Part shown: positions 2,564 to 19,808 of the stretch, piece after piece
Numbering within the stretch: the first letter of the stretch is position 1
Layout of the letters: each line of letters starts with the position of its first letter
Source of the DNA: Cryobacterium luteum
GTDB taxonomy: Bacteria > Actinomycetota > Actinomycetes > Actinomycetales > Microbacteriaceae
Direction of reading: 5' to 3'
DNA length: 64,000 bases
Assembly: GCF_900110125.1 (NCBI RefSeq)
Contig: NZ_FOCN01000008.1
Location: 1-64,000, forward strand
Notes under the pieces: generated by a model
Seen by the model: only the letters and a program-made list of their open reading frames with translations
Told to the model about the DNA's origin: nothing
Databases searched by the model: none
Program-made: the position numbers and the translations under genes

Positions 2564-5254
2564 GTGAAGCTGAACCTCAAGGCGGTCGAAGAACGCGTCG
2601 CCCCGATAGGCGGTCGAGAGTCCTACGACCGTGAGTTCATTTTCGAGTTGCTCCTCGCCTACGGCCGTTCGCAGGGCAATATCACCCGACTCCGAAACGG
2701 CTCCATAAACGTCGCCGAGGACAAGGCGCACGACGTGGCTCAGAAGAACGTGGTCTACTTCCGTGAGACCACCGGTGACCCGCTCGCTGTCATCGACAGC
2801 CTGCGGACCTCACCGACCGTGGTCCGGCACAACACTCGGTTCGTGATCGTCACCGACTACAGCGAGCTGCTTGCCGTCGACACCAAGACAGGTGAGAACC
2901 TGATGATCCCAATCCGGGACATCGGCAAGCACTTCACGTTTTTCCTCCCCTGGGCTGGCATGGAAAAGGCCCAGTACGTCGCAGAAGCTCACGCCGACGT
3001 CAAGGCTGCCGAGCGAATGGGCAAACTTTTTGACGAGCTACTCGCGGCTAACCCGGAGTTGCTGGATCTGCCGCACGGCCGGCATGCCCTGAACGTCTTC
3101 TTCATTCGGCTCCTGTTCTGCTTCTTTGCAGAGGACACCCGCATCTTCGCAGAGAACCAATTCACGAACGCCATTGCATCACACACCCAGCCCGACGGCA
3201 CCGACGTCGCCGAGTTCATGACAAAGCTCTTCACTGCGCTGGACACAGAGCGGGCGAGCGACAAGCCCACCTATCTTGCCGCGTTTCCTTACGTCAACGG
3301 GCGGCTGTTCACCGTGAAGCCCACGGATGTGGTGCCTCTTTTCACCAAGAAAGCTCGAGACCTCTTGATCGAGTCCGGCACGCTCATTTGGCGGGAGATC
3401 AACCCCGATATCTTCGGCTCGATGTTCCAAGCAATCGTCACCCCGGGCAAGCGCTCCGATCTTGGGCAGCACTACACCTCGGTGCCGAACATCCTCAAAA
3501 CCATCGAACCTCTTTTTCTCGACTCGTTGAAAGAGGAGTTTGACACCGCTTTCAACTCGCCGCGGAGGCTTGAAGAGCTCCTTGAGCGCATGGGGCAGAT
3601 CAAAGTCTTCGATCCGGCTTGTGGATCAGGGAACTTCCTAGTTATCGCGTACAAGGAACTGCGGCGTCTCGAGCACGCAATTCTGGAACGCCTCACCGAC
3701 ATCGATCCCAAGCATCAGGTGCTGTTTGCCGACTCCAAGATCAACGTCGAGAACTTCTTCGGAATCGAGATCGACGACTTCGCCGTCGAGGTTGCGATCC
3801 TCTCTCTGTGGATCGCCAAGCACCAGATGAACCGTGAGTTCTTCGAAAAGTTCAAAGTCGACCTGCCCCTCATCCCACTCAGGGAGACCGGCCAGATCCA
3901 CCAGGGCAACGCCATCACCGCGGACTGGTCCAATGTTTGCTCGAACGACGGCTCCGAGGAAATATACCTTCTCGGAAATCCGCCCTATTTGGGTAGTCGA
4001 AATCAATCCGCTGGGCACAAGAAGGACCTCTCGACTATCACAACGAAGTATAAGAGCCTTGACTACGTTTCCGCTTGGGTAATTAAGGGAGCGGACTATA
4101 TCCGAGGCACGGCCTCTGAGATGGCTTTGGTGACCACAAATTCGATTACGCAGGGTGAACAGGTAGGTCTACTTTGGCCGAGTGTGCTAGGTCACGACTT
4201 GGAAATCGGATACGCCTACACTTCATTTACCTGGTCGAATCGGGCCCGTGGTTCGGCTGGTGTGACGTGTGTCGTTTTTTCGATCCGGGCGCGCAGCACA
4301 CGTGACAAGTACATCTACACCGACGAACTTCGGCATGAGGCCGGTCGCATCAACCCGTACTTGGCAGATGCTCCGGACATCTGGCTCGGCCGCCGGAGCT
4401 CCCCCCTGAGTAAGCACCTTCCTCACCTCGGTTATGGATCGATGCCCAATGACGGCGGGAACCTAATCCTGAGTGACTCCGAAAAGCAGGTGCTCCTCGA
4501 ACGCCACCCACAGGCTTCCGATTACGTGAAGGGATATTGCGGAGCAGATGAGTTGATCAAAGGGAAGACGCGATGGTGTCTGAGTATTTCGGAGGAAAGT
4601 CTTTCTGATGCACGCAAGATACCCGAAATCGAAGCTCGCCTTCAAGGTGTTCGCAATCATCGCTTGAAGAGCACCGAGAAATCCACGAAGGCCCTGGCTG
4701 AGTTTCCAAACAGATTCTACTTCTTTGCTCACAAGGACTCTGACTCGATCCTTCTTCCCAGCATTTCATCTGAGCGCAGGGAGTACCTCCCTATCGGTTA
4801 TGTCGGTCCCGAAATTATCGGCTCCAATAAGGTCTTGGTAATGCACCAGACTCAGCTCTGGGCATTCGCCCTAGTCACCTCGCTAATGCATATGGCTTGG
4901 GTCAATGCCGTATCAGGACGGATGCGTTCAGACTTCCAGTACTCGAACACAATCGTCTACAACAACTTCCCGGTTCCTTCCATGGGCGATGCGACAAGGG
5001 AACGTCTCACGACTGCTGCGCTGCGAGTATTAGACGTGCGGGAATACCACTGCGAAAAAACTCTGGCTGAGCTGTACGACCCGGACCTGATGCCCTCGGA
5101 TTTGCGCGCTGCTCACGCCGACGTGGACACACTGGTCGACTCCATTTATTCCAAGCGCGCGTACGAGACAGACGAGCAGCGGTTGTCTGACCTCTTCAGC
5201 CTGTACGAAAAGATGACGGCAGATGAAGCATTAAACGGGGGAAAGAAAAAGTGA
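2564..5254 (+). CDS. DNA methyltransferase (MmeI/YeeA-like, nuclease motif not seen)
   Basis: A SAM-dependent DNA base methyltransferase of 896 residues. Motif I DPACGSGNF is at about residues 350-358 and motif IV NPPY at 472-475, the signature of N6-adenine or N4-cytosine methylation. The C-terminal SGRMRSDFQYSNTIVYNNF stretch is typical of the target-recognition end of MmeI/YeeA-like proteins. In MmeI-type enzymes the N-terminus carries a nuclease E-x-K motif; I cannot find one here, so cleavage may be done by partner genes. I chose GTG 2564 because AGGA lies 8 nt upstream; ATG 2534 is the alternative. The stop overlaps the next start (GTGA), making it the first gene of a coupled operon. 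Confidence 0.85.
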   Translation: MKLNLKAVEERVAPIGGRESYDREFIFELLLAYGRSQGNITRLRNGSINVAEDKAHDVAQKNVVYFRETTGDPLAVIDSLRTSPTVVRHNTRFVIVTDYSELLAVDTKTGENLMIPIRDIGKHFTFFLPWAGMEKAQYVAEAHADVKAAERMGKLFDELLAANPELLDLPHGRHALNVFFIRLLFCFFAEDTRIFAENQFTNAIASHTQPDGTDVAEFMTKLFTALDTERASDKPTYLAAFPYVNGRLFTVKPTDVVPLFTKKARDLLIESGTLIWREINPDIFGSMFQAIVTPGKRSDLGQHYTSVPNILKTIEPLFLDSLKEEFDTAFNSPRRLEELLERMGQIKVFDPACGSGNFLVIAYKELRRLEHAILERLTDIDPKHQVLFADSKINVENFFGIEIDDFAVEVAILSLWIAKHQMNREFFEKFKVDLPLIPLRETGQIHQGNAITADWSNVCSNDGSEEIYLLGNPPYLGSRNQSAGHKKDLSTITTKYKSLDYVSAWVIKGADYIRGTASEMALVTTNSITQGEQVGLLWPSVLGHDLEIGYAYTSFTWSNRARGSAGVTCVVFSIRARSTRDKYIYTDELRHEAGRINPYLADAPDIWLGRRSSPLSKHLPHLGYGSMPNDGGNLILSDSEKQVLLERHPQASDYVKGYCGADELIKGKTRWCLSISEESLSDARKIPEIEARLQGVRNHRLKSTEKSTKALAEFPNRFYFFAHKDSDSILLPSISSERREYLPIGYVGPEIIGSNKVLVMHQTQLWAFALVTSLMHMAWVNAVSGRMRSDFQYSNTIVYNNFPVPSMGDATRERLTTAALRVLDVREYHCEKTLAELYDPDLMPSDLRAAHADVDTLVDSIYSKRAYETDEQRLSDLFSLYEKMTADEALNGGKKK

Positions 5255-7221
5255 GCAATTCACTCAATGTTGTGGACGTGACCTATGCCCGCACCGGCGC
5301 GTCAGTGAACACCGACGCGATGGGGATGCGGGAGATGCAGCAGCGCGTCTTCGCCAAGCGCGACGCTCAGCACCTCCTAATCAAGGCCCCGCCTGCGTCG
5401 GGCAAGTCGCGCGCGCTAATGTTCGTTGCGCTCGACAAGCTCTACAACCAAGGCCGCAAGAAGGTGATCGTGGCCGTCCCCGAACGCTCGATCGGTCCAT
5501 CGTTCGCAGCGACGAATCTGACCGATCGCGGGTTCTTCGCTGATTGGGAGATCAAGCCCGAGCACAATCTCTGCACACCGGGCTCCTCCGCGGGCAAGGT
5601 CAATGCGTTCATCAAGTTCCTTGAGAGCCCGGACGCGACGCTGGTTTGCACACACGCCACGTTGCGGTTTGCCTTCGAGAGACTCGCCCCCGATGCGTTC
5701 AACGGCACCGTGCTCGCGATCGACGAATTCCACCACGTCTCTGCCGACATAGAGGCCAACCGGCTGGGAGCCCTCCTGCACGACGTCATGAGCGGCTCCG
5801 ACGTGCACATCGTCGCAATGACCGGCTCCTACTTCCGCGGTGACTCGGTGCCCGTTCTGACCGCGGACGACGAGGCTCAGTTCACTCCGGTTACGTTCAA
5901 CTATTACGACCAGCTCAACGGGTATGAACACCTCAAATCTTTGGGAATAGGTCACCATTTCTATCAAGGTCGCTACACCGATGCCATCGGCGAAGTCCTC
6001 GATCTCGACAAGAAGACCATCTTGCACATCCCGAACGTGAACTCGGGTGAGTCCACTAAAGACAAAATCGAAGAAGTCGGATTCATTATCGATTCGATCG
6101 GTGACGTGATCGAGACCGAAGACACGGGCATTATTCGCATCCGCCGCAAGGACACCGGTGAGGTCCTGCGGGTCGCGGACCTAGTTGACGACGCGGACCA
6201 GAAGAAGCGCGCGGAGACCCAGCATTACCTCTCAACCGTCGCTTCCAAGGAACGTGACGGAGTTGACATCATCATCGCGCTCGGCATGGCGAAGGAAGGT
6301 TTTGACTGGCCCTTCGCCGAGCACGCGCTAACCGTCGGCTACCGCGCCTCTCTGACGGAGGTAATCCAGATCATCGGCCGTGTCACCCGGGACAGCCCGG
6401 GCAAGGAGCACGCTCAGTTCACTAACCTCATCGCCCAACCCGACGCGGCAACGGATGACGTGAAGTACTCGGTCAACAACATCCTTAAAGCGATCACGGC
6501 CTCGCTTCTGATGGAACAAGTTCTGGCCCCAAACTTTACGTTCAAGACCAAGACCGGCAACGACGACGCTCCCAAACCCGGTGAGCTGCGGATCAAGGGT
6601 TTCAAGGAACCCTCGACCGACCGGGTGAAGCAGATCGTGAAGACCGACCTCAACGACCTCAAGGCCACCATCCTCCAGGACGACACCTTCGCGAAGGCCG
6701 CTGCAGGCAGCCTCGACCCCGAGGTTACCAACAAGGTCCTGATTCCGAAGATCATCCGCGACCGGTACCCGGATCTCAACGAAGCGCAGGTTGAGGAAGT
6801 GCGGCAGCAGGTCGTCGTGGACTCTGTGATTAAGAACGGCGAAATTCGCGAGGTCGGCGACAAGCGTTTCATCAAGATGGCCGAGAAGTTCGTCAACATC
6901 GACGAAATCGACATCAATCTTATTGACTCGGTAAACCCGTTCCAACGGGCCTTCGAGGTCATGAGCAAATCAGTGACCCCGAGTGTGCTGCGCATCATCT
7001 CCGACGCCATCACGGCTACTCGCATCGAGATCAGCGAAGACGAGGCGCGCGTATTGTGGCCGAAGATTCAGATCTGGGTGAAGGTGAATAGCCGCAAGCC
7101 TGACGTGCGCAGTGATAACCCGACGGAGAAACGCTACGCCGAAGCGATCCTTTTCCTTCAGAGGCTGAAGCAGCGCCATCTGGCTGCGCAACGAGCGATG
7201 TTGGTGGGTAACGAGGCATGA
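5251..7221 (+). CDS. SF2 DEAD/DEAH-type helicase of defence operon 1
   Basis: A 656-residue superfamily 2 helicase/translocase. Walker A is APPASGKS (46-53), the DEFH Walker B box is at 158-161, the motif III-like TGSYF segment follows, and motif VI is QIIGRVTRD (373-381). The last third has no motif I know and could contact partners or DNA. It starts with GTG in a GTGA overlap with the methyltransferase stop, so the two are translationally coupled. In restriction systems such helicases translocate DNA to reach or activate the nuclease; here that role is inferred from context. It also overlaps the next gene (ATGA). Confidence 0.85.
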   Translation: MSNSLNVVDVTYARTGASVNTDAMGMREMQQRVFAKRDAQHLLIKAPPASGKSRALMFVALDKLYNQGRKKVIVAVPERSIGPSFAATNLTDRGFFADWEIKPEHNLCTPGSSAGKVNAFIKFLESPDATLVCTHATLRFAFERLAPDAFNGTVLAIDEFHHVSADIEANRLGALLHDVMSGSDVHIVAMTGSYFRGDSVPVLTADDEAQFTPVTFNYYDQLNGYEHLKSLGIGHHFYQGRYTDAIGEVLDLDKKTILHIPNVNSGESTKDKIEEVGFIIDSIGDVIETEDTGIIRIRRKDTGEVLRVADLVDDADQKKRAETQHYLSTVASKERDGVDIIIALGMAKEGFDWPFAEHALTVGYRASLTEVIQIIGRVTRDSPGKEHAQFTNLIAQPDAATDDVKYSVNNILKAITASLLMEQVLAPNFTFKTKTGNDDAPKPGELRIKGFKEPSTDRVKQIVKTDLNDLKATILQDDTFAKAAAGSLDPEVTNKVLIPKIIRDRYPDLNEAQVEEVRQQVVVDSVIKNGEIREVGDKRFIKMAEKFVNIDEIDINLIDSVNPFQRAFEVMSKSVTPSVLRIISDAITATRIEISEDEARVLWPKIQIWVKVNSRKPDVRSDNPTEKRYAEAILFLQRLKQRHLAAQRAMLVGNEA

Positions 7222-8432
7222 CCGCAGCCGAGAACGGAAACAACAACAGTCAGCCACCAGTGACGGACACCAATGGGACCGATATGCAGTGGCTTATTGA
7301 CTCTGACGTCGACGGACTCTTGGATGTAGAGGAGAAGCCGAAAAAGATCACGCCCAATGACCGCCTAGAGAAAGCATTCCTCGAGATAATCGAGTTCCGT
7401 CGCACCCACGACCGAGTGCCCAGGTCGACGACACGAGAGATCGCTGAACGCAAGTTAGGCGCTCGGCTGGATGGCATTCTTGCTGACGAAGCCAAATCCA
7501 CCGCGCTGAAGCGCTTGGACGAGTTCGGACTCTTGGAAGTTGCTGAGACACCCGCTTCGATCGACGACCTGCTCAACAGCGACGACTTCGACTTGCTCGG
7601 GGACGATGGGTCTGGGCTTTTAGACACTTCCGGATTACCGGCACGGGCCCGCCGCGTTGCACCCGATGATGTGGCGACGAGAGTCAAGTCCGAAGATTTT
7701 AAGCAGTATGAACACCTCTTCGTTCAGAAGCACGCGGAACTTAGGGACGGCGGATCTAGGCTCGTGAGATTTGCTGTGGCCGGTGGCCAACAGGCGATCC
7801 AGCAGGGAAAGTTTTTCGTGCTTTCCGGGATCATGCTCTTCGTAGCGGAGATAACGGATCCTGAGGCAGCCCCAGGGGTGCGGACCCGATACAAGCCACG
7901 CACAAAGACGATTTTCGAGAACGGCACGGAATCGCGTCTCTTTCGGCGTTCCTTAGCCGGACAACTCCTTGAGCAGGACGGGTACGCAGTCGTGAGCGCG
8001 GGCCCAGTAGAGATCTTCCCCGATGACGAAGCCACTGGATACATCTATGTTTTGAAATCGATGAGCACCGATCCTCAGATTTCACACCGAGAGAATCTTT
8101 ACAAGATCGGCTTTACCCGCGGTTCGGTCACGAAACGAATTGCAAATGCTGAAAAGGAGCCTACCTATTTGATGGCTCCGGTTGAGGTTGTCTCCACGTA
8201 CCAAACGTACAATCTCAAGGTGTCTGCGCTTGAAGACCTTCTGCATCGGGTCTTTGCGAAAGTGCGGCTCGATATCAAGCAGATTGACGGAGGAGGACGC
8301 CGTATCGACCCTTCGGAATGGTTCGTCGCGCCGGTGAACGTCATTGACCAGGCAATCAACTTGATAATGTCCGGCGACATTATCGACTACGTGTACGACG
8401 CTGAGACCCAACGGCTTCTGGAGCGTGACTGA
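7218..8432 (+). CDS. GIY-YIG nuclease (T5orf172-like) of defence operon 1
   Basis: A protein of 404 residues. The C-terminal part has the GIY-YIG layout of the T5orf172/MUG113 type: GYIYVLKS at about 274-281, LYKIGFTRGSVTKRI shortly after, and the probable catalytic Glu in ALEDLLHRVF. The first half is acidic, with Asp/Leu-rich segments (DDLLNSDDFDLLGDDG) that look like a flexible or interaction region. A middle segment, GKFFVLSGIMLFVAE, resembles the domain often placed before GIY-YIG modules. The start overlaps the helicase stop (ATGA). The likely role is DNA cleaving subunit of a methyltransferase-helicase complex; this is inference from neighbours. Confidence 0.75.
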   Translation: MTAAENGNNNSQPPVTDTNGTDMQWLIDSDVDGLLDVEEKPKKITPNDRLEKAFLEIIEFRRTHDRVPRSTTREIAERKLGARLDGILADEAKSTALKRLDEFGLLEVAETPASIDDLLNSDDFDLLGDDGSGLLDTSGLPARARRVAPDDVATRVKSEDFKQYEHLFVQKHAELRDGGSRLVRFAVAGGQQAIQQGKFFVLSGIMLFVAEITDPEAAPGVRTRYKPRTKTIFENGTESRLFRRSLAGQLLEQDGYAVVSAGPVEIFPDDEATGYIYVLKSMSTDPQISHRENLYKIGFTRGSVTKRIANAEKEPTYLMAPVEVVSTYQTYNLKVSALEDLLHRVFAKVRLDIKQIDGGGRRIDPSEWFVAPVNVIDQAINLIMSGDIIDYVYDAETQRLLERD

Positions 8433-9520
8433 TGGGTGTCGAGATGGGGCTGTGGCGCGCGGACGGCGACATGCTGACCCGCATCACTGCAACAGTCATC
8501 GGCCTCGAAGCCCAACTGGAGTCATACATTGAGTCAGACCCGTCGATGCTGGGCGAGATGCTTCTGATCGTTGGTCGACAGGTCACGACAGCACACGGCG
8601 GTTACATTGACCTGCTCGCCATCGACGAAACCGCAGCAGTACATGTAATCGAACTCAAGCGGGACAAGACACCCCGCGACGTCACCGCACAGACTCTCGA
8701 CTACGGCTCGTGGGTCGCGACGCTGGGCCGCGCCGAGATCATAGGAATCTTCGCCAGCTACCGCCCCGGTGTCGCGCTGGAAGAAGCCTTCGAAGAACAG
8801 TTCGGTGGAACGCTGCCGGACATGATCAACGCGAACCAAGTCTTCACCATCGTTGCTGCTTCCGTCGATACCGCTACCGAACGCATCGTGCGGTTCCTCA
8901 ACGAGGACTTCGGGATCCCGATCAACGTCGTCTTCTTCCGCCACTTCCACGACAACGGGGCTGCTTACCTCGCACGAACATGGCTCGTCGAGCATGATGC
9001 GCAGTCGGTCGCGACTCCTTCGACCACAGGCAAGACGAAGACTCGCGAGCCCTGGAACGGGCAAGACTGGTACGTCTCCTTTGGCGAGTCGCCCGCTGGC
9101 AGACACTGGGCTGATGGCATGAAGTACGGTTTCGTCTCCGGCGGTGGCGACAAGTGGTTTTCTCGGACGCTAAAGAACCTCACCGCAGGATCACGCGTCT
9201 TTGTCTGCATCCCGAAGACTGGATATGTCGGCGTCGGCACTGTCCTCGACGAGGCTAAGCGGTTTGACGAGAGTACGGTCCTGCACAACGGCAGTGCGAC
9301 GGCGTTGAACGCGCTCCCTTTGGAGGGAACATATCGCCACGAGGGTGACGAGGATGATGACAACGCCGAATGGGCCGTGCCGGTCGAGTGGACCCACGCC
9401 ATCCCCCGTGAGCAGGGCTTCTGGAAGCCAGGCATGTTCGCTAACCAGAACATCGCGGCGAAGCTGCGCAATCAGTTCACTATTGACCAGGTCTCCGAGG
9501 CATTCGGTCTCGATGACTGA
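8432..9520 (+). CDS. PD-(D/E)XK nuclease (NucS/DUF91-like) fused to EVE-like domain
   Basis: A protein of 362 residues. The N-terminal half matches the NucS/DUF91 nuclease core: SDPSMLGEMLLIVGRQV, then Asp60 in YIDLLAID and the E74-x-K76 motif in VIELKRDK, followed by LDYGSW. From residue 208 (WNGQDWYVSFGE) to about 340, the pattern WADGMKYGFVSGGG, NLTAGSRVFVCIP and GYVGVGTV resembles EVE/PUA-type domains, which bind modified bases. This would make it a modification-sensing nuclease, like type IV restriction enzymes. It starts at TGATG over the previous stop, so it is coupled to the operon. The EVE assignment is by pattern only. Confidence 0.7.
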   Translation: MGVEMGLWRADGDMLTRITATVIGLEAQLESYIESDPSMLGEMLLIVGRQVTTAHGGYIDLLAIDETAAVHVIELKRDKTPRDVTAQTLDYGSWVATLGRAEIIGIFASYRPGVALEEAFEEQFGGTLPDMINANQVFTIVAASVDTATERIVRFLNEDFGIPINVVFFRHFHDNGAAYLARTWLVEHDAQSVATPSTTGKTKTREPWNGQDWYVSFGESPAGRHWADGMKYGFVSGGGDKWFSRTLKNLTAGSRVFVCIPKTGYVGVGTVLDEAKRFDESTVLHNGSATALNALPLEGTYRHEGDEDDDNAEWAVPVEWTHAIPREQGFWKPGMFANQNIAAKLRNQFTIDQVSEAFGLDD

Positions 9521-9601
9521 ATCACCCGTCGCGGGCGTTCTGATTCCTTGCTTACAGACGGCATATGGACTTCACCCTTAACTCAAACGGAGCTCGACGC
9601 A

Positions 9602-10432
9602 ATGCCATCTTCGAATCGCCCGGTTCCGGCTGATATTTCTTCCATCAGTTCGTCCATTCAGGCACGCCACCTTCAGTTTCCGATGGCTCATGCGATCACA
9701 GCTGCACCGGGCGATTCTGCTAATGACGTAGGTGCATTGCTTGCAGCATGGCAGTTCGACGCGTGCCCTGTCCTGGAGGATGGCCATGTTGTCGGCATCT
9801 TCCAGCGGGAGGAGGGACCTCTCAGCACGACAGTTCAGGATTCCATGTGTAATATCACGGCCCGAAACCTTACCGCCGCGGACACGCCACTCGAATCGCT
9901 CGTGGAAGACCTCGGCACGCACGCGCTGATTTTTGTCCTTGAAGGGCGCAAGATTACGGGATTCGTCACGCCCGCTGACCTCGGCTCTGCTGCAGCGCGT
10001 ACCTACTTCTACCTGAAACTCTCAGCGCTCGAAGTAGCCGCAGCCGATTACCTTCGCCAACGCTACCCTCACCAGGAGGATGCACTCTCAGCGTTGTCGA
10101 ATGGGCGCAGATCAAAGGCGCAGGAACTAGTCGCCTCGTTACTGGCCGACGATGCCTTCATTGACATCGTCGCGTCGCTCAGTCTTCAAGACCTCGTTAG
10201 CGTACTCGGCAAAGACGAACCATTTCGCGCTCGCATAAGGGAATCTGGCATCGGATGGGATTCACTCAGCCATGGTCTTACTGGTTTCCGCAATGACATC
10301 ATGCATCCTTCCCGGCCGTTTGGCGGCGCCACCCGAAAGGGTGCGCAAGGTCTCAGCAAGAAATTGCGCGGTCTGACTACTCTCACAGAGGCGCTCATTT
10401 CGCTGAGACAACTAAACGTGCTTCTGCCGTGA
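9602..10432 (+). CDS. CBS-like / HEPN-like protein, last gene of defence operon 1
   Basis: A protein of 276 residues. The N-terminal half looks like a pair of CBS-type repeats (ITAAPGDSANDVGALLAAW, CPVLEDGHVVGIFQ, then FVLEGRKITGFVTPADL), which usually bind adenine nucleotides. The C-terminal half is helical and ends in GFRNDIMHPSRPF: R230-N-D-I-M-H235 fits the Rx4-6H motif of HEPN RNases and toxins. It follows the nuclease gene after 81 nt with a GGAG site before ATG 9602, and is probably co-transcribed. A nucleotide-gated RNase effector is an attractive reading, but this is inference. An in-frame start at 9548 is possible. Confidence 0.6.
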   Translation: MPSSNRPVPADISSISSSIQARHLQFPMAHAITAAPGDSANDVGALLAAWQFDACPVLEDGHVVGIFQREEGPLSTTVQDSMCNITARNLTAADTPLESLVEDLGTHALIFVLEGRKITGFVTPADLGSAAARTYFYLKLSALEVAAADYLRQRYPHQEDALSALSNGRRSKAQELVASLLADDAFIDIVASLSLQDLVSVLGKDEPFRARIRESGIGWDSLSHGLTGFRNDIMHPSRPFGGATRKGAQGLSKKLRGLTTLTEALISLRQLNVLLP

Positions 10433-10772: not shown

Positions 10773-11174
10773 ATGGCGCTAGTGGGTCTCGCGAGAGTGA
10801 GCACGACGAATCAGTAAAATGCCCGCCAAAACGACGCACTGTATCCGATCTGCGTGAAAGTCTTCGAAGAGAAGGTCAGCGGCAAACTTGCTGTGGCCGA
10901 CCGACCGGGACTGCGCGAAGCGCTCTACTACTTGCGAGTCGGAGACTTACTCACTGTGCAAGAGGTCGATCGGCTCGGACGCAATCTTCTGGAGGGCTTG
11001 GTCGTTCTCACCGAGCTTTTCAGGCGAGGCATCGCCGTCAAGGTGCTTGAAGGCATCGCTGCAGATGAGCACACCGCGCGTAGCCTCATCCGGGACTTGT
11101 CACCCGCACTGGCCGGAGATCGCCGACGCGACATTGTCCGCAAAACCAAGAATGGCTTCGTTCGTGGTCAATAG
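10773..11174 (+). pseudogene. Serine recombinase (resolvase/invertase) with in-frame stop and missing C-terminus
   Basis: ATG 10773 opens MALVGLARVSTTNQ, containing the catalytic serine motif RVS of resolvases, and then meets TAA at 10815. The same frame continues with clear resolvase sequence: VKVFEEKVSGKLAVADRPG, REALYYLRVGDLL, EVDRLGRNLLEGLVVLTE and DRRRDIVRKTKNGF. It stops at 11174 without the usual C-terminal helix-turn-helix. The gene is therefore dead twice over, by a nonsense codon and a truncation. It is a trace of the machinery that once moved part of this island. Confidence 0.75.
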
Positions 11175-14048: not shown

Positions 14049-15758
14049 CTACTGGCCGGCCACAGAGGCTGGTGTCTCAAGGCGGTATCCGCCTCCGGAG
14101 AGTCGGTTCACGAGAACCACAAGGTCGTAGGCGAGGTCAAGAACCGGCGGATGGGCATGATCAGGCGTGTTGTCATTTTCGAGTTTGGCGAGCAGGACAG
14201 GCAGCAGCGCCTCGGCGAGTTCGACTTTGCTGACGCGCTGCTGGATGCGATCGAAGACCACTTTGATGTCGAGTTTACGATCGCGTACGTACTCAATATC
14301 CGAGGGCAATCGAATCGACCAGCTTCCCTCGTCGCGAGCGGTATCCGGGCTTGCGCGCAGCACGGAGGTGATTGCAATCTCCAGCTCGTGGTTCGTAAAA
14401 TTCGCGAGTTCGTACTTGTGGTCGCCCCAGGTGTGCAGCTGCACGAGTATCTCGAGCTCGTGATCGGTGAGTGTGCCACCCTGCTCAGCGACTTCTTGAC
14501 GCACGATCTCGCGGAGCTCGCGTAAACGACGATCGCGCGCGTTTTTTGTGCCCCAGATCGGCCCCTCTCCATCCATGGCGACCACCAGCGCTGTAGGTCC
14601 GGCTTCAATAAGGTGGCTGTCGCCACGGACTCGTCCTAAGCGCGGCGCGACATAGCGAGCAAGTTGTTTAGGCGTATCGCTCGACGTGCGCTGATTCACG
14701 ACTCGTACCTGTCGCGGCTTACTCATACCGAGTGCATCCAGTAGAGCCGGTACGTGAACCATCTCAGTCTCACCTTCGAGCACGAGCACTACACATGGCT
14801 CCGGCGATAGCCCGACCCGCGCCAAGCTTCGGTGAATACCGTCGCTATCCCGCTGCAGACCGATGCGTTCCTGTAGCGGATGCCAGATGTGCGGATCACG
14901 CGTGTTTGGGAGGGGATCGAGCGCGCCGATGGCCGCGAGTTCTTCGTGCGCGCGCAGAAGCACCTCAGCTGCGATACGCTGCCAGATCGCCTCGAGGGCA
15001 CCGCCGCGCAGACGGAACCAGCCGTTCGCATCCGAATGCCTCAGGAGATCCCACCACTGGCGCATGGGGTCGTACGTGTGCGCACGCGAAAGCAAGAACT
15101 CGGCCGCTGGACGCAGACGTTCGATTGGAAAGTCCGCCGCGACGAGCCTCGTCGCGGCGTCGAGTTCATGGCCAGCAGCAGCGAGCGTCTCTCGTTCGGC
15201 GCCGTCTCGGTAAGTGACCCGGCCGACAACATTCGGGAAGAACCGCGTCGATAGCGCGGCCAAGGCCACGTGTTCGTGCCGCTGTTGCGCTGCGAAAGCG
15301 CGGCACCACGCCTCGTCGTCCGGAACGATGCGCAGGTTCTCGCGCTGTCCGAGTGCGTCGCGTAGCCCCAACAGTTGCCATTCACTGTAGAAGAACCCAT
15401 CCCACCAACCTTCCCCAGCATCATCCGGACGACGATGCGGCCAAAGCGCGGGATCCTCACTGGAGGGATCCCGAATCATACCCTCACGTGCATATCTCGC
15501 GATTCTGCTGTTATCACTGGCCTGGGGTGCCGCGAGATCTTCAACGTTCACGTCATCGTCCGCCCGATATAGGGGGACGAGTAGCCCCAGCCGGTGGAGT
15601 TCTTCAAGGTCTTCTATGGAGACGTGCTGATCCCACTTCGATCTGGCTTCGTCCCGAAACTGCCTGGACGACAGAAGTGGTACCTGCGAATATGCGAACG
15701 GTAAATCGAGCAGCGGCAACGTCGAAGGAATCACCTTAGCGTCGGTATCGCCGGTCAC
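14049..15758 (-). CDS. OLD-like TOPRIM protein of defence operon 2
   Basis: A protein of 569 residues. A TOPRIM core is visible: VVLVLEGETEMVHVPALL (Glu328 and Glu330 of EGETE) and VVAMDGEG with Asp396. This is the metal-binding pattern of OLD-family nucleases, topoisomerases and primases. The first 300 residues are helical and Trp-rich (GEGWWDGFFYSEWQLLG) with no ATPase motif, so it is unlike classical OLD proteins, which carry an ABC ATPase. The start chosen is GTG 15758 because it overlaps the upstream stop (GTGA), like the junction before it; GTG 15794 is also possible. Likely role: DNA or RNA nuclease acting with the upstream PD-(D/E)XK protein. Confidence 0.65.
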   Translation of the reverse strand: MTGDTDAKVIPSTLPLLDLPFAYSQVPLLSSRQFRDEARSKWDQHVSIEDLEELHRLGLLVPLYRADDDVNVEDLAAPQASDNSRIARYAREGMIRDPSSEDPALWPHRRPDDAGEGWWDGFFYSEWQLLGLRDALGQRENLRIVPDDEAWCRAFAAQQRHEHVALAALSTRFFPNVVGRVTYRDGAERETLAAAGHELDAATRLVAADFPIERLRPAAEFLLSRAHTYDPMRQWWDLLRHSDANGWFRLRGGALEAIWQRIAAEVLLRAHEELAAIGALDPLPNTRDPHIWHPLQERIGLQRDSDGIHRSLARVGLSPEPCVVLVLEGETEMVHVPALLDALGMSKPRQVRVVNQRTSSDTPKQLARYVAPRLGRVRGDSHLIEAGPTALVVAMDGEGPIWGTKNARDRRLRELREIVRQEVAEQGGTLTDHELEILVQLHTWGDHKYELANFTNHELEIAITSVLRASPDTARDEGSWSIRLPSDIEYVRDRKLDIKVVFDRIQQRVSKVELAEALLPVLLAKLENDNTPDHAHPPVLDLAYDLVVLVNRLSGGGYRLETPASVAGQ

Positions 15759-17509
15759 TTTGTGTCGACCGTTGGGATCGGTTCTATGCGCCACTGCCGT
15801 ACGGGCATCCCGCTAACGAAGCGCCACTCCGGGCGGCACTTGTCGCAGCTTATCCATAAGTCGTGCTCTTGGAACCCTGGCGCGTCTTCGTGCTCTTCGA
15901 CAATTCGTCCGTCGCCGCAGGGGCAGATGTACTCATAGTGTTCTGCGTCCCCGGAGCGACCGCTGAACCCCGCGACGTGGGGTTGTCCGCCATCGATCTT
16001 CTCAGTTCGAATACCAGCGGAGGTCGGCGGACCCAGCGTGACATTTGCCGCTGCGTCCGTCTCATCATCGAACGCGAGTCGATCATCACCTTTGATCTTT
16101 GAAGCCGAAAGAGGTCGTCGCGCGTCCAACGTCGTATACCGGATCCGCTTCCCGACCTTCGCCGCGACGAGCGCAACCTCCGCGGGGAGCGTCTTGAGCC
16201 GAGCGACCGCACTGGGACCATTCCGGTATTGCACGGCCAAGAACCAGCCATCGGTCGCACCATCCGACTTCAGATAGCTGGGAAGTTGGTCCTGCAGCCC
16301 GTTCCAAAATTTGCCGTTGTGGAGCTTCTTTACCTCGATCAGCAGTCTGGCGGAGGTGCCAGATGACGCCTTGAAATCAACAGGCCCTCGTCCGAGCTCG
16401 ACCTCTCGGTCGAGCTCGACATCGAACTGGCGCAGATACTGCTGGGCGACACCGAGGAACAGGAGTTGAACTGCTGCTTCGGGCTTCTCCGACCCATCGT
16501 CATTCCAAAGGAGGCTCCAACCACGCTGCTCTTCGATAAAGATTCGGAAGCAGTCGATCACTTCTGCAACCAGTTCCAGTAGATCATCGTGAGTAGTCAC
16601 GGAGCGCGGGGGCAGGGGGTGCTCGGCTGCGAACTGGACGGGTTCGCGATCCCACTGGACCACGCCCAGAGGATCGGCGCCGAAGTTGTAGCCAGCGAGA
16701 TCCTTGCGGCTTGTTTGCGCCCGGGCCCACTCACGGACGCGCTCAGGGTAACGGCGTGCCCATGAAACGATGCTCGCCTTAGTGACAGCCTGACCAACTT
16801 TCAGGTTCAGCGAAAGACGAATGTCGTCGTTAACGTGAGCGTCGAACCAATCGTCCGCGTTAAGCGTCGGCAGGCCGTTGAGGATCATCTCGGGTACCAG
16901 GATGATCGCACGGCCGGTTAGCGGATTCGTCGGCAGTTGGACTTCCTCGTCGTGCCATCGGGCAACGTCCAGTGTGACCCGTGCGTGACGCACCTTGTGC
17001 GCTGAGAGCGGCACACCATGCCGCCTGGCAACAGCTTGTGTGTACGCAATCAGGCGCGCCTTTATGACGTTGGCCGTGGCATCCGAAATTCTGTCTGCAC
17101 CGATTCCTTCGTTCAGGATTCCGATCTCTTCGATGTGCTCGGGATGGTCCAGTCCGTGAGCGAGGGCGACGGCGATACCGTCGGCCATCCGTTCGGCAAA
17201 ACGATCACCAGACCCGGACCCACGCGTGCCCGAAGCGGTATAGCCGAGGCCTAGTTCGTAGGGTTCAGGAAATGTGAGCAGGCGACGTGCGGCCTTTCCC
17301 GAGACTGAGGCAGGTCCGGTCGCCTTCGCGACCAGTCCGTAGCAATGAACGAAATGTGCAACGAGTTCGTTATGGGCCTCCGCCCACTCGCCACCTGCCT
17401 CGAGTAGCAGAACTGGATCGATGAAGAGCTTCGTGTCGATCGTCAGGTGCGAATCGAACCAATCATCAGCGTCGCTTCGCACGACACCGAATGCCTCTGA
17501 GAACCTCAC
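15755..17509 (-). CDS. PD-(D/E)XK nuclease-like protein with C-terminal Cys cluster, operon 2
   Basis: A protein of 584 residues. The N-terminal half has DDWFDSHLTIDTKLFIDPVL and GIGADRISDATANVIK, motifs I recall from large uncharacterised proteins of defence islands but cannot name. A restriction-type nuclease core follows: Asp378 in GPVDFKASS and E392-x-K394 in LLIEVKKLHNGKFW. Near the end, CPCGDGR and ISCDKCRPEW suggest a zinc-binding knuckle. The start is GTG in a GTGA overlap with the XRE-ImmA stop, and the end overlaps the TOPRIM gene. The likely role is a nucleic-acid-cleaving effector; substrate unknown. Confidence 0.65.
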   Translation of the reverse strand: MRFSEAFGVVRSDADDWFDSHLTIDTKLFIDPVLLLEAGGEWAEAHNELVAHFVHCYGLVAKATGPASVSGKAARRLLTFPEPYELGLGYTASGTRGSGSGDRFAERMADGIAVALAHGLDHPEHIEEIGILNEGIGADRISDATANVIKARLIAYTQAVARRHGVPLSAHKVRHARVTLDVARWHDEEVQLPTNPLTGRAIILVPEMILNGLPTLNADDWFDAHVNDDIRLSLNLKVGQAVTKASIVSWARRYPERVREWARAQTSRKDLAGYNFGADPLGVVQWDREPVQFAAEHPLPPRSVTTHDDLLELVAEVIDCFRIFIEEQRGWSLLWNDDGSEKPEAAVQLLFLGVAQQYLRQFDVELDREVELGRGPVDFKASSGTSARLLIEVKKLHNGKFWNGLQDQLPSYLKSDGATDGWFLAVQYRNGPSAVARLKTLPAEVALVAAKVGKRIRYTTLDARRPLSASKIKGDDRLAFDDETDAAANVTLGPPTSAGIRTEKIDGGQPHVAGFSGRSGDAEHYEYICPCGDGRIVEEHEDAPGFQEHDLWISCDKCRPEWRFVSGMPVRQWRIEPIPTVDTK

Positions 17510-18609
17510 CCGCGCGCTCCAATTGGCACGCGCGACGCGGCGATTTCATACAAGCCAACCGGCAGCCCCGAGCCTGAAAGGAACGTCTCGTTGTCTACGC
17601 CGGCCTCGCTGAGTACTTCCTTGGCGCGAGGCAGCATTGAAGGCATCTCCAGAGATGACATGCGTCCCGGCTCGGCCCGACGCCACCCGTTCTGCGACAT
17701 CCTAACCATCGCGTTCCGGTAGGACACATCGCCCATGATGCCGAGCGAGCGGGCACGATAGAGCAGCGCCGCGAGGCTGACACCCCAGTGTTCTTTGAGC
17801 TCGGCGAGCTGCGCCCACGCCTTTCCAGCGGTGGAGTTCGGCAGGAACGGCGCGATCTCGTCAGCAGGCATCAAGAATTCAGCGGCGAAACGGTTAGCTT
17901 GTTCTTCCGCGACTTTTCCACCGGGTTCGGCGTCGTGGTGCATGATCAGGTGGCCGAGCTCATGGGCCACGTCGAAGCGTTGGCGGTAGTAGTCGTCCTT
18001 CACCGGGTTCAGGATGATGATCGGCCTGGTAGACGTGTGGAGTGAGAACGCATCGATTGCTGCAACCCCAGGTTCGCTGAAGACCACAACCACACCGCGG
18101 CGTTCAACGAGGCGCACGACATGCTGGATTGGTCCCGGTGGGACTGCAAAGAAGCCACGAGCCCCCCGCGCTGCGTCCTCGGGCGTCATGCTGCGCTCGT
18201 CGGTATCTACAGGGAGATCTGGGAGTAGAACTTGCGGGAACTCCACCACGTTCTCGAGCATCCCCGCGATCTCAGCGACAAACCGTCCGTAGGCCTCAGC
18301 TTCGTCTTGCGCGATCTGCGGTGTCGATCGCAGTGACCTGAAATGCGGCTTGTTGACCTTGGGTGGCGCCCCTCCCCCGAAGAACTGCGGCTCGACCCGG
18401 AGCGCGAGCGCAAGCTTCGCGACAGTCGCACGGTTCGGCTGCTTGACGCCACTTTCCCATGCGGTTACAGAAGCGGGAGACATTTCAATAAGCCCGGCAA
18501 GGTGCGATTTCTTTAGACCAGCGAGCTGCCTCGCCATGGTGAGCCGCTCACCGTTGAAGAACGAAGCTGCGGCGGCGAGCGTCTGGGACGGGCGACGCTG
18601 ATCAACCAT
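17506..18609 (-). CDS. XRE-family regulator fused to ImmA/IrrE metalloprotease
   Basis: A protein of 367 residues. The N-terminus is an XRE helix-turn-helix (ARQLAGLKKSHLAGLIEMSP, VTAWESGVKQPNRATVAKLA). The middle is an ImmA/IrrE peptidase with the zinc motif H216-E-L-G-H220 and the downstream EEQANRFAAEFLMP helix. Such proteins sense damage or invasion and cleave or release a repressor; fused forms are often found in antitoxin and phage-defence loci. ATG 18609 overlaps the upstream stop (ATGGTTGA), with GAAGGGG about 13 nt before. It is a good candidate to control its own operon through the promoter at 19406-19411, which is an inference. Confidence 0.85.
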   Translation of the reverse strand: MVDQRRPSQTLAAAASFFNGERLTMARQLAGLKKSHLAGLIEMSPASVTAWESGVKQPNRATVAKLALALRVEPQFFGGGAPPKVNKPHFRSLRSTPQIAQDEAEAYGRFVAEIAGMLENVVEFPQVLLPDLPVDTDERSMTPEDAARGARGFFAVPPGPIQHVVRLVERRGVVVVFSEPGVAAIDAFSLHTSTRPIIILNPVKDDYYRQRFDVAHELGHLIMHHDAEPGGKVAEEQANRFAAEFLMPADEIAPFLPNSTAGKAWAQLAELKEHWGVSLAALLYRARSLGIMGDVSYRNAMVRMSQNGWRRAEPGRMSSLEMPSMLPRAKEVLSEAGVDNETFLSGSGLPVGLYEIAASRVPIGARG

Positions 18610-19399
18610 TCGCGCTGCCAGCCCCTTCTTCCCTGCGGCGCGTCTTGATTCGCACCGGCACATCTTCGACATTGGTCGACGCTCCGTCACCCGGGAGCGC
18701 AGGCGGAACAGCCGTGCCAGTAGCGCTGATGCGAGTGCCGCCAGACAGGAGCAGATGCTTCCAATGCCAGCATGAGCCCTGCGGATACTCGGCGTTCTTG
18801 CTCTGCCCGATGTAGAGCTCGTACTGCTTGGTCATCGGATTGAACGCGTGTGCAGCGATAAGAGTCACACCGTCGAAGTCATGGTCTTCCGGGATACCCA
18901 GAATCGACTCCAGCCCGAACTCCGCGTCCACGAAAAGCGCCCCTTCGCTGGCGAAGTTCTGTGAGGCGACCCGACGTTTAACGTCGCTGCGACGCACCCA
19001 CTTGATTTCATCGATCTGGCCAAATGTGTACGACTGCAACAGAACTCGGTAGCCCTTGATCGCCCAACCCGGCGACTGCTGGTAGTCGCGGCGGACGATC
19101 GCGTCGCTCTCGAGTGAGGGCATCGACCGAAACACGTCGGGCGTGATGCCGCGCTTCATGACGTCGGAACCCATGCCGTCGACCCCATCTCCCAGCACGA
19201 AACGCCCGTTCGCGGTCGCACGATCCATGAGATCCCGGAAGTGCTTGAAATTGAGATAGCCGACAACGCCCTGGTCGTGCCCAGCGTCCTCGTCGTAAAT
19301 TTGGTCAGTCGCCGCAAATGCGGCCGGCGCCGCCCAGGTTAAGCCATCGAGCAGGCCGGAGTCGCGGAGGCTAGCAATGGCGTCGTCTTCTGCAGTCAT
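18602..19399 (-). CDS. Unknown protein, first gene of defence operon 2 (265 aa)
   Basis: A soluble protein of 265 residues starting MTAEDDAIASLRDSG. It has SPGWAIKGYRVLLQSY, FGQIDEIKWVRRSDVKRRVA and KQYELYIGQSKNAEYPQ, and a basic tail (RIKTRRREEGAGS). No family is recognised, and no membrane segment or signal peptide is present. It is first in a tightly overlapping operon, so it probably belongs to the same system as the XRE-ImmA protein; it could be the sensor, or the protein ImmA cleaves. ATG 19399 is preferred over ATG 19414, because a TATAGT box sits 6 nt before it, as in leaderless actinobacterial mRNAs. Confidence 0.6.
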   Translation of the reverse strand: MTAEDDAIASLRDSGLLDGLTWAAPAAFAATDQIYDEDAGHDQGVVGYLNFKHFRDLMDRATANGRFVLGDGVDGMGSDVMKRGITPDVFRSMPSLESDAIVRRDYQQSPGWAIKGYRVLLQSYTFGQIDEIKWVRRSDVKRRVASQNFASEGALFVDAEFGLESILGIPEDHDFDGVTLIAAHAFNPMTKQYELYIGQSKNAEYPQGSCWHWKHLLLSGGTRISATGTAVPPALPGDGASTNVEDVPVRIKTRRREEGAGSANG

Positions 19400-19405
19400 A
19401 CCTTC

Positions 19406-19411
19406 ACTATA
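19406..19411 (-). promoter_or_regulatory. Probable -10 box for defence operon 2 (leaderless start)
   Basis: TATAGT on the minus strand ends 6 nt before ATG 19399, which places the transcription start at or next to the start codon. No good -35 is seen, as is common for actinobacterial promoters. A and T-rich DNA with partial symmetry (CACAATGCACTGGTCATAATG) lies just upstream and could bind the XRE protein. Confidence 0.45.
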
Positions 19412-19808
19412 CATTATGACCAGTGCATTGTGTCGTAAATTTCACTCTCAATATGTCTTGTGCGCATTATCGACACTCAGCTAAATAGCGCGCAGACTCG
19501 CGCAGAGCGGATTCAAAGACGGTTCACGCAGTGCAGGCCCGTCCGTATATATCGCTTTCGCTCCTGACTGAGATGCGGGCCACCTCGATGACCGTCGCCT
19601 CGCCCGCTCGGACGGCAGGAGCGTGCTGAAAAGTTTCCTGAACGTCTAACGTCGTATAGCGCCATACTGCATTCGCGGAATCTTGCATTATTGTCATGAT
19701 CCGAAGCGCATGACCTAGGGACTGCAGTCGATGCTCGTGACTCCTAGTCACATACCCGAGACCGGTTGGACCCCGACAGACGAACAACTTGCTCGAGTTT
19801 GCTCACTC
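19412..19808. other. 397 bp between defence operon 2 and the comEC junction
   Basis: It holds the promoter region of operon 2 and a weak minus-strand frame (19524-19787, TTG start, 87 aa, with LGHALRIMTIM and VWRYTTLDVQETFQHAP). That frame could be a gene remnant but has no ribosome binding site. Nothing else is recognised. The right attachment site of the island should lie near the end of this stretch. Confidence 0.4.

Follow-up and report, generated by a model that had tools for sequence, protein, structure and literature searches.

Closest described systems and how the locus compares

The EVE-HNH enzyme VcaM4I is a modification-dependent endonuclease for which the pocket residues P24, W82, and Y130 have been described (PMC7897488), and PvuRts1I is described as an N-terminal PD-(D/E)XK nuclease joined to a C-terminal PUA-superfamily reader (PMC12707154). 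Fusions of EVE and PD-(D/E)XK domains, with the EVE domain in either position, have been presented in general terms as putative type IV enzymes (PMC7641849), in a paper whose main text mentions neither NucS nor DUF91. Among multigene systems, DnmA-YeeB-YeeC of B. subtilis comprises an MmeI-related m6A methyltransferase without an REase motif, a helicase, and a T5orf172 protein; as far as the available description goes, deletions in B. subtilis had no effect on phages under the conditions tested, and a DnmA-type cluster of Vibrio affects sensitivity to some phages (PMC9973331). The candidate defence family PDC-S11 was found in 10 of the 100 strains of a P. aeruginosa panel, 90% of those 10 being phage resistant as a correlation only (PMC10855318), and is reported to co-occur with other systems in S. 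suis (PMC12813430); no functional test of the family was found in the available portions of these two papers.

Here, we analyzed a stretch of 64,000 nucleotides of Cryobacterium luteum (the window), which encodes a NucS-EVE-like protein. Its C-terminal domain is predicted to have a reader fold of the same kind as that of VcaM4I, whereas the architecture differs in that the HNH nuclease of VcaM4I follows the reader and the NucS-type PD-(D/E)XK nuclease of the window protein precedes it. The order and logic are those of PvuRts1I (PMC12707154), a likeness of domain order, since the reader of PvuRts1I is SRA and that of the window protein EVE/YTH-like. From EndoMS/NucS it differs at both ends: nuclease fold and catalytic motif are common to the two, but the N-terminal domain of EndoMS/NucS is not matched, and the putative reader is attached at the opposite end. 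The general architecture is that of the EVE-PD(D/E)XK enzymes as outlined in PMC7641849, and the PDC-S11 HMM is matched over its full length, with no difference in architecture seen. The three genes upstream of the nuclease gene agree in type and order with those of DnmA-YeeB-YeeC, a likeness drawn from the description in PMC9973331, in the available text of which no nuclease-like fourth gene was seen for B. subtilis or others.

Operon and genomic island

Four genes lie head to tail on the forward strand, neighbors overlapping by a few bases: an MmeI-like (DnmA-like) DNA methyltransferase in which no REase motif is visible (2564-5254; Pfam MmeI domains), a YeeB-like SF2 DEAD/DEAH helicase (5251-7221; Pfam DEAD, 28.2 bits), a YeeC-like T5orf172/GIY-YIG nuclease-like protein (7218-8432; Pfam MUG113 and T5orf172, with 28 aligned rows that include several duplicates), and the NucS-EVE-like gene (8432-9520; 362 amino acids from an ATG start). 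The earlier note had placed this last reading frame inside a methyltransferase operon and had singled out its residues D60, E74, and K76; the frame and the residues are there at the positions given, and the gene is more exactly the final one of the operon. For the methyltransferase, the listed open reading frame begins at 2162, and homologues suggest a start at about the GTG at 2564. The protein matches MmeI (5hr4) with 590.9 bits from residue 222 onward, and NPPY is present in 22 of 22 aligned rows (the window and one duplicated locus included), among which no conserved D..ExK is visible by eye.

The G+C content is 0.56 to 0.61 across the window's first 20 kb, rises to 0.66 to 0.69 over the following 4 kb, and is 0.64 for the window as a whole, which fits an acquired island. 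A serine recombinase remnant, recognized by appearance only, at 10854-11174 (+) would suit a mobile island. The NucS-EVE-like gene is under purifying selection: whole-gene dN/dS is 0.05 to 0.08 in pairs of the window gene with five relatives, dS being saturated (>2) in two of the five, for which the value of the C-terminal domain is undefined, and per-domain values are 0.03 to 0.09 in the three unsaturated pairs.

Directly downstream, a reading frame at 9548-10432 (+) has a weak CBS match and, by eye, an RNDIMH stretch, which we take to resemble the HEPN RNase motif. As a candidate for a conserved fifth gene it was rejected, matching only itself among the loci scanned. A second defence-like block occupies 14049-19414 on the reverse strand and holds an RmrA-like HTH/IrrE protein (17506-18690; 348 bits), a weak RmrT match (18602-19414; E = 5.8e-5), a PDC-M36A-like protein (15755-17509; 82 bits), and a frame of 581 amino acids without a match.

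A NucS-type nuclease domain and a predicted EVE/YTH-like domain

Residues 25-180 (8504-8971, +) form a NucS/EndoMS-type PD-(D/E)XK domain, in agreement with the NucS/DUF91 fold that the earlier note had proposed for the N-terminal half. The catalytic motif is intact: D60 (8609-8611), E74 (8651-8653), and K76 (8657-8659), together with Q87 and Y91, show no variation across the 74 rows, window included, of an alignment chosen by hand from 97 relative loci of the genome collection and viral contigs. The profile of this alignment matches Pyrococcus NucS (2vld) with E = 3.9e-6, and the domain in the full-length predicted model (mean pLDDT 88.1) superimposes in VIA on 2vld with Z = 14.2 (2.0 Å over 108 residues) and on 5gke with Z = 14.1. 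Pfam NucS_C matches 74 of 74 rows at E ≤ 1, the window protein itself scoring 21.2 bits, just under the curated 24.

The C-terminal domain (residues 208-362; 9053-9517, +) was recognized through fold comparison only. Predicted by itself from 49 sequences (pLDDT 90.9, pTM 0.87), it yielded a fold of EVE/YTH type within the PUA superfamily, with VcaM4I as the top Foldseek match (E = 1.7e-4, query TM 0.49) and mostly EVE and YTH structures after it. VIA gave Z = 10.0 for PH1033 (2.9 Å over 114 residues), 9.5 for MJECL36, 8.9 for VcaM4I, and 7.8 to 8.8 for YTH domains; we take PH1033, MJECL36, 2ar1, and 1zce to be EVE proteins. Though EVE chains come first in this ranking, with YTH chains about 1 to 2 Z units below, rows up to 1 Z unit apart count as ties, so EVE and YTH, the latter an m6A reader fold with about the same VIA score, are not separable for this domain. 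Searches by sequence were fruitless. The window protein has no match to Pfam EVE (PF01878) at E ≤ 1, EVE is absent among the 25 of 33 Pfam families listed for the 74 rows, hhalign of the domain against eight EVE sequences returned a probability of 0.3%, and a PDB profile search with the domain alone gave unrelated proteins at best (E = 0.15) and no EVE or YTH chain. The predicted domain is thus EVE/YTH-like by fold and not a member of Pfam EVE. The EVE/PUA assignment made earlier from the spacing of WYVSFGE (213-219), GSRVFVCIP (253-261), and GYVGVGTV (264-271) is supported by the predicted fold and not by an EVE sequence profile, and YTH domains score alike; one refuting outcome named in the earlier note, a predicted structure lacking a PUA/EVE fold, did not occur. 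By its fold, the domain is a putative modified-base reader. Conserved aromatic residues provide candidates for its pocket, namely W208 and W320 (73 of 74 rows each, with one gap), W226 (69 of 74), and F234 (68 of 74); residues 1-152 of VcaM4I align end to end on 210-362, in a register too coarse for naming pocket residues.

Exchangeable genomic partners

At least 576 stretches of the genome collection contain relatives of the protein (E ≤ 1e-5), and the best 80 of these stretches were used for locus counts. Within these 80, MmeI, helicase, and GIY-YIG genes precede the nuclease at 8 loci, HsdM lies on the same strand no more than 2 kb upstream at 21 (weakly matched at one, L066), and none of the queried genes was found at 47. 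Four genomes of the genus have the complete set of four genes in one place, namely the window's own, G018, G004, and G026. This early impression of a four-gene unit, from the 8 of 80 loci and the four genus genomes, was biased because the relatives had been found with the nuclease as the query. When 398 genomes of the host's family were sampled evenly, G018 and G004 not being among them, the helicase was present in 12 and a full-length nuclease gene in 10 (E below 1e-100), and the two stand side by side in only 2 of the 12 helicase genomes (the window's own and G026). The idea of one obligate four-gene system was rejected on these grounds, 10 of the 12 helicase loci having no nuclease next door. 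In G280, a nuclease copy lies about 3.6 kb upstream of the methyltransferase, and in G015 an otherwise intact cluster of MmeI, helicase, and GIY-YIG genes is followed by a nuclease remnant of 31 residues, 84% identical (L165:7805-7897; L011:1501-1593), which is perhaps the trace of a recent loss. Two of the 8 loci with an MmeI context (L045 and L092) carry a broken nuclease frame, through assembly error or decay.

Further relatives are found within type I operons, next to other systems, or next to housekeeping genes. At 16 loci the nuclease starts about 3 nt past the stop of an upstream gene in the HsdS position (gene calls are rough, and phmmer matched the HsdS-position gene at only some of these loci), and at 12 of the 16 a gene of HsdR size (1,115 to 1,128 residues) lies directly downstream; of the HsdR-sized genes adjoining a nuclease gene, two were put to Pfam, that of L093 and a viral one (L125), and both keep HSDR_N. 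With any PF02384 gene present in 40 of 98 genomes of the class (E ≤ 1e-10), this background density is low, and adjacency to HsdM is therefore far above chance. Elsewhere, L037 has type III res upstream, the relatives in L043, L044, and L046 adjoin genes encoding TRCF, ChlI, or MMPL domains, and those in L061, L062, and L055 have Upx and AlbA_2, TmtA, or dynamin-like neighbors.

A tree of 70 of the 74 rows (L120, L121, L124, and L126 were dropped), with long branches, shows the window's nearest relatives alternating between MmeI, type I, and other contexts. Across all contexts, 15 changes were counted versus 21.8 in shuffles, and context is therefore partly inherited and often changed; these labels were set by hand, type I by mere closeness (L032 lies about 2.6 kb from HsdR), and the label "other" includes L038 and L034 despite R-M genes nearby. 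For the MmeI label alone, 4 changes were counted, and 42 of 500 shuffles gave as few, so that its clustering is not significant. A modifying enzyme shares an operon with the nuclease at many loci and not at others, with no fixed partner, and the nuclease is an exchangeable, dispensable add-on rather than a fixed part of the operon.

Host methylation and tolerated marks

Genes for C5-cytosine methyltransferases (PF00145) are not visibly depleted in carrier genomes. They occur in 4 of the 10 full-length carriers (nuclease E below 1e-100; the methyltransferase match in G026 is weak, 7e-14) compared with 174 of the 398 family genomes, a total that includes the 10 carriers, and in 30 of 50 further carriers, mostly isolates picked by hand from the best 80 genome loci and considered here without a matched control or correction for genome size and kinship; the numbers are small, and they count the presence of genes rather than methylation. 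When the plasmid, genome, and viral loci were scanned for motifs, a single C5-like reading frame turned up, 2.7 kb from the nuclease gene (L072). Coexistence with such genes argues against a broad reader of 5mC, the best-known ligand of EVE domains. The adenine-type methyltransferases of the partner systems are likewise tolerated by carriers. Because a broad cutter of 5mC or m6A DNA would harm such hosts, hypermodified phage bases or a modified base in a narrow context are the likelier targets.

Proposed function and alternatives

We propose, with a confidence slightly better than even, that the NucS-EVE-like protein is a type IV-like add-on whose reader would flip out a modified base and whose NucS-type domain would cut nearby, directed against hypermodified phage DNA. 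Cutting, base flipping, dependence on modification, and the target base are what we infer in this proposal. By analogy with VcaM4I and EndoMS, the C-terminal EVE/YTH-type domain would flip a modified base out of the DNA into its pocket, and the flipped base would position or release the N-terminal PD-(D/E)XK domain for a cut close by. The protein would work as a stand-alone enzyme, co-expressed with complete self-marking systems, which are DnmA-YeeB-YeeC-like here and type I operons elsewhere. We suggest that it is co-expressed with them because it covers a blind spot, namely hypermodified phage bases that block sequence-specific recognition and cleavage. The likeliest targets would be hmC, glucosyl-hmC, 7-deazaguanine, modified thymine, or a modified cytosine in a narrow context. 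The END nucleases of Yee et al. (2025; bioRxiv 10.1101/2025.03.31.646159) are, by the title of that work, reportedly defence nucleases against hypermodified phage genomes. The earlier note had seen a paradox in a modification-dependent nuclease next to a methyltransferase. That paradox is weakened, and on the proposed reading mostly explained, given that the nuclease is an exchangeable add-on and that pairs of type I and type IV systems are a known arrangement, as in loci or islands of E. coli (PMC12707154).

Tight spacing in type I operons and the presence of all four genes together in four genus genomes could mean a physical partnership, which would count against a stand-alone enzyme. Also against the proposal stand the failure to recognize EVE by sequence, the similar scores of YTH folds, and the absence of relatives from 50,697 phage records. 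The protein might then be a working subunit of its partner restriction system, its reader recognizing the m6A self-mark of the partner and either holding the nuclease off marked DNA or recruiting it to unmarked DNA. YTH readers of m6A fit the fold nearly as well as EVE domains in VIA, the identified partners have adenine or amino-type methyltransferase domains, and no nuclease motif can be made out by eye in the 22 aligned rows of the MmeI homologue. We nevertheless hold such a subunit to be unlikely: partners keep nuclease domains of their own (GIY-YIG here, HSDR_N in L093 and L125), 10 of the 12 DnmA-like clusters in the family sample do without the nuclease next door, close relatives differ in partner, and the queried methyltransferase genes were not found at 47 of the best 80 genome loci. 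A long shot along related lines would be a mobile second checkpoint, in which YTH-like reading of the m6A self-mark set by the co-transcribed amino-methyltransferase would direct cutting to DNA in which the mark is absent or misplaced; if true, systems of type I, type III, DnmA-type, or BREX-like kind could each take up one nuclease as a shared, interchangeable effector.

Other readings do without a self-mark. EndoMS recognizes mismatches and not modification, and a nuclease of the Shedu kind, responsive to the ends or structure of DNA and with a C-terminal domain that binds DNA and reads no modification, would be in keeping with this, with the weak Pfam SduA_C matches of 15 rows out of 74 (E = 0.0014 at best), and with the weak Foldseek match to SduA 8ps4 (E = 0.011). 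Yet the second domain has a predicted reader fold, and the PADLOC models that the window protein matches at E ≤ 0.1 are PDC-S11, PDC-S18, and PDC-S02, Shedu not being among them, which leaves a nuclease of that kind quite improbable. A classical 5mC-dependent enzyme attacking methylated foreign DNA would agree with the nearest folds, among which are VcaM4I, described as binding 5mC/5hmC DNA (PMC7897488), and the structure of THYN1 with 5mC DNA; we consider it very unlikely in view of the C5-methyltransferase genes, which show no visible depletion in carriers (4 of 10, with one weak match, compared with 174 of 398; 30 of 50 in the further set), even though reading of 5mC in a narrow context could still be compatible with them. 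The nuclease fold is also common to NucS, but that the protein is a mismatch or flap repair paralogue carried along by chance is improbable in the extreme, as the host encodes a full NucS in another gene (378.5 bits), the window protein scores 18.8 and 33.2 bits against two NCBIfam NucS models with cut-offs of 252 and 216, only the C-terminal domain of NucS is matched, and the gene lies among defence genes.

The preferred reading, a type IV-like add-on, offers a suggested reason why the nuclease can coexist with a methyltransferase, in that it would read something other than the host's own marks. It also supplies a specific biochemical hypothesis, open to testing, for a candidate family of defence proteins found in bacteria and haloarchaea. 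Should an unusual phage base be what is read, the protein would be a possible tool for mapping that base.

The PDC-S11 family and its distribution

By sequence, the NucS-EVE-like protein belongs to the candidate single-gene defence family PDC-S11 of PADLOC, matching PDLC04916 with 482 bits (E = 2.3e-145) and aligning residues 1-360 with positions 1-356 of the 358-position profile. At E ≤ 1e-5, relatives were found in 91 of 72,556 plasmid records, haloarchaeal ones included, with at least 80% of the protein covered in 41 of the 91; none was found in 50,697 phage records, and 17 viral contigs carry matches, several of them short. On three plasmids (L012, L014, and L023), relatives adjoin type I R-M, BREX, and Zorya genes. 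At L051:8875-9993, directly upstream of a relative, a second protein has a PDC-S11 match (53 bits) confined to its residues 10-239 and is possibly the same nuclease with another sensor domain.
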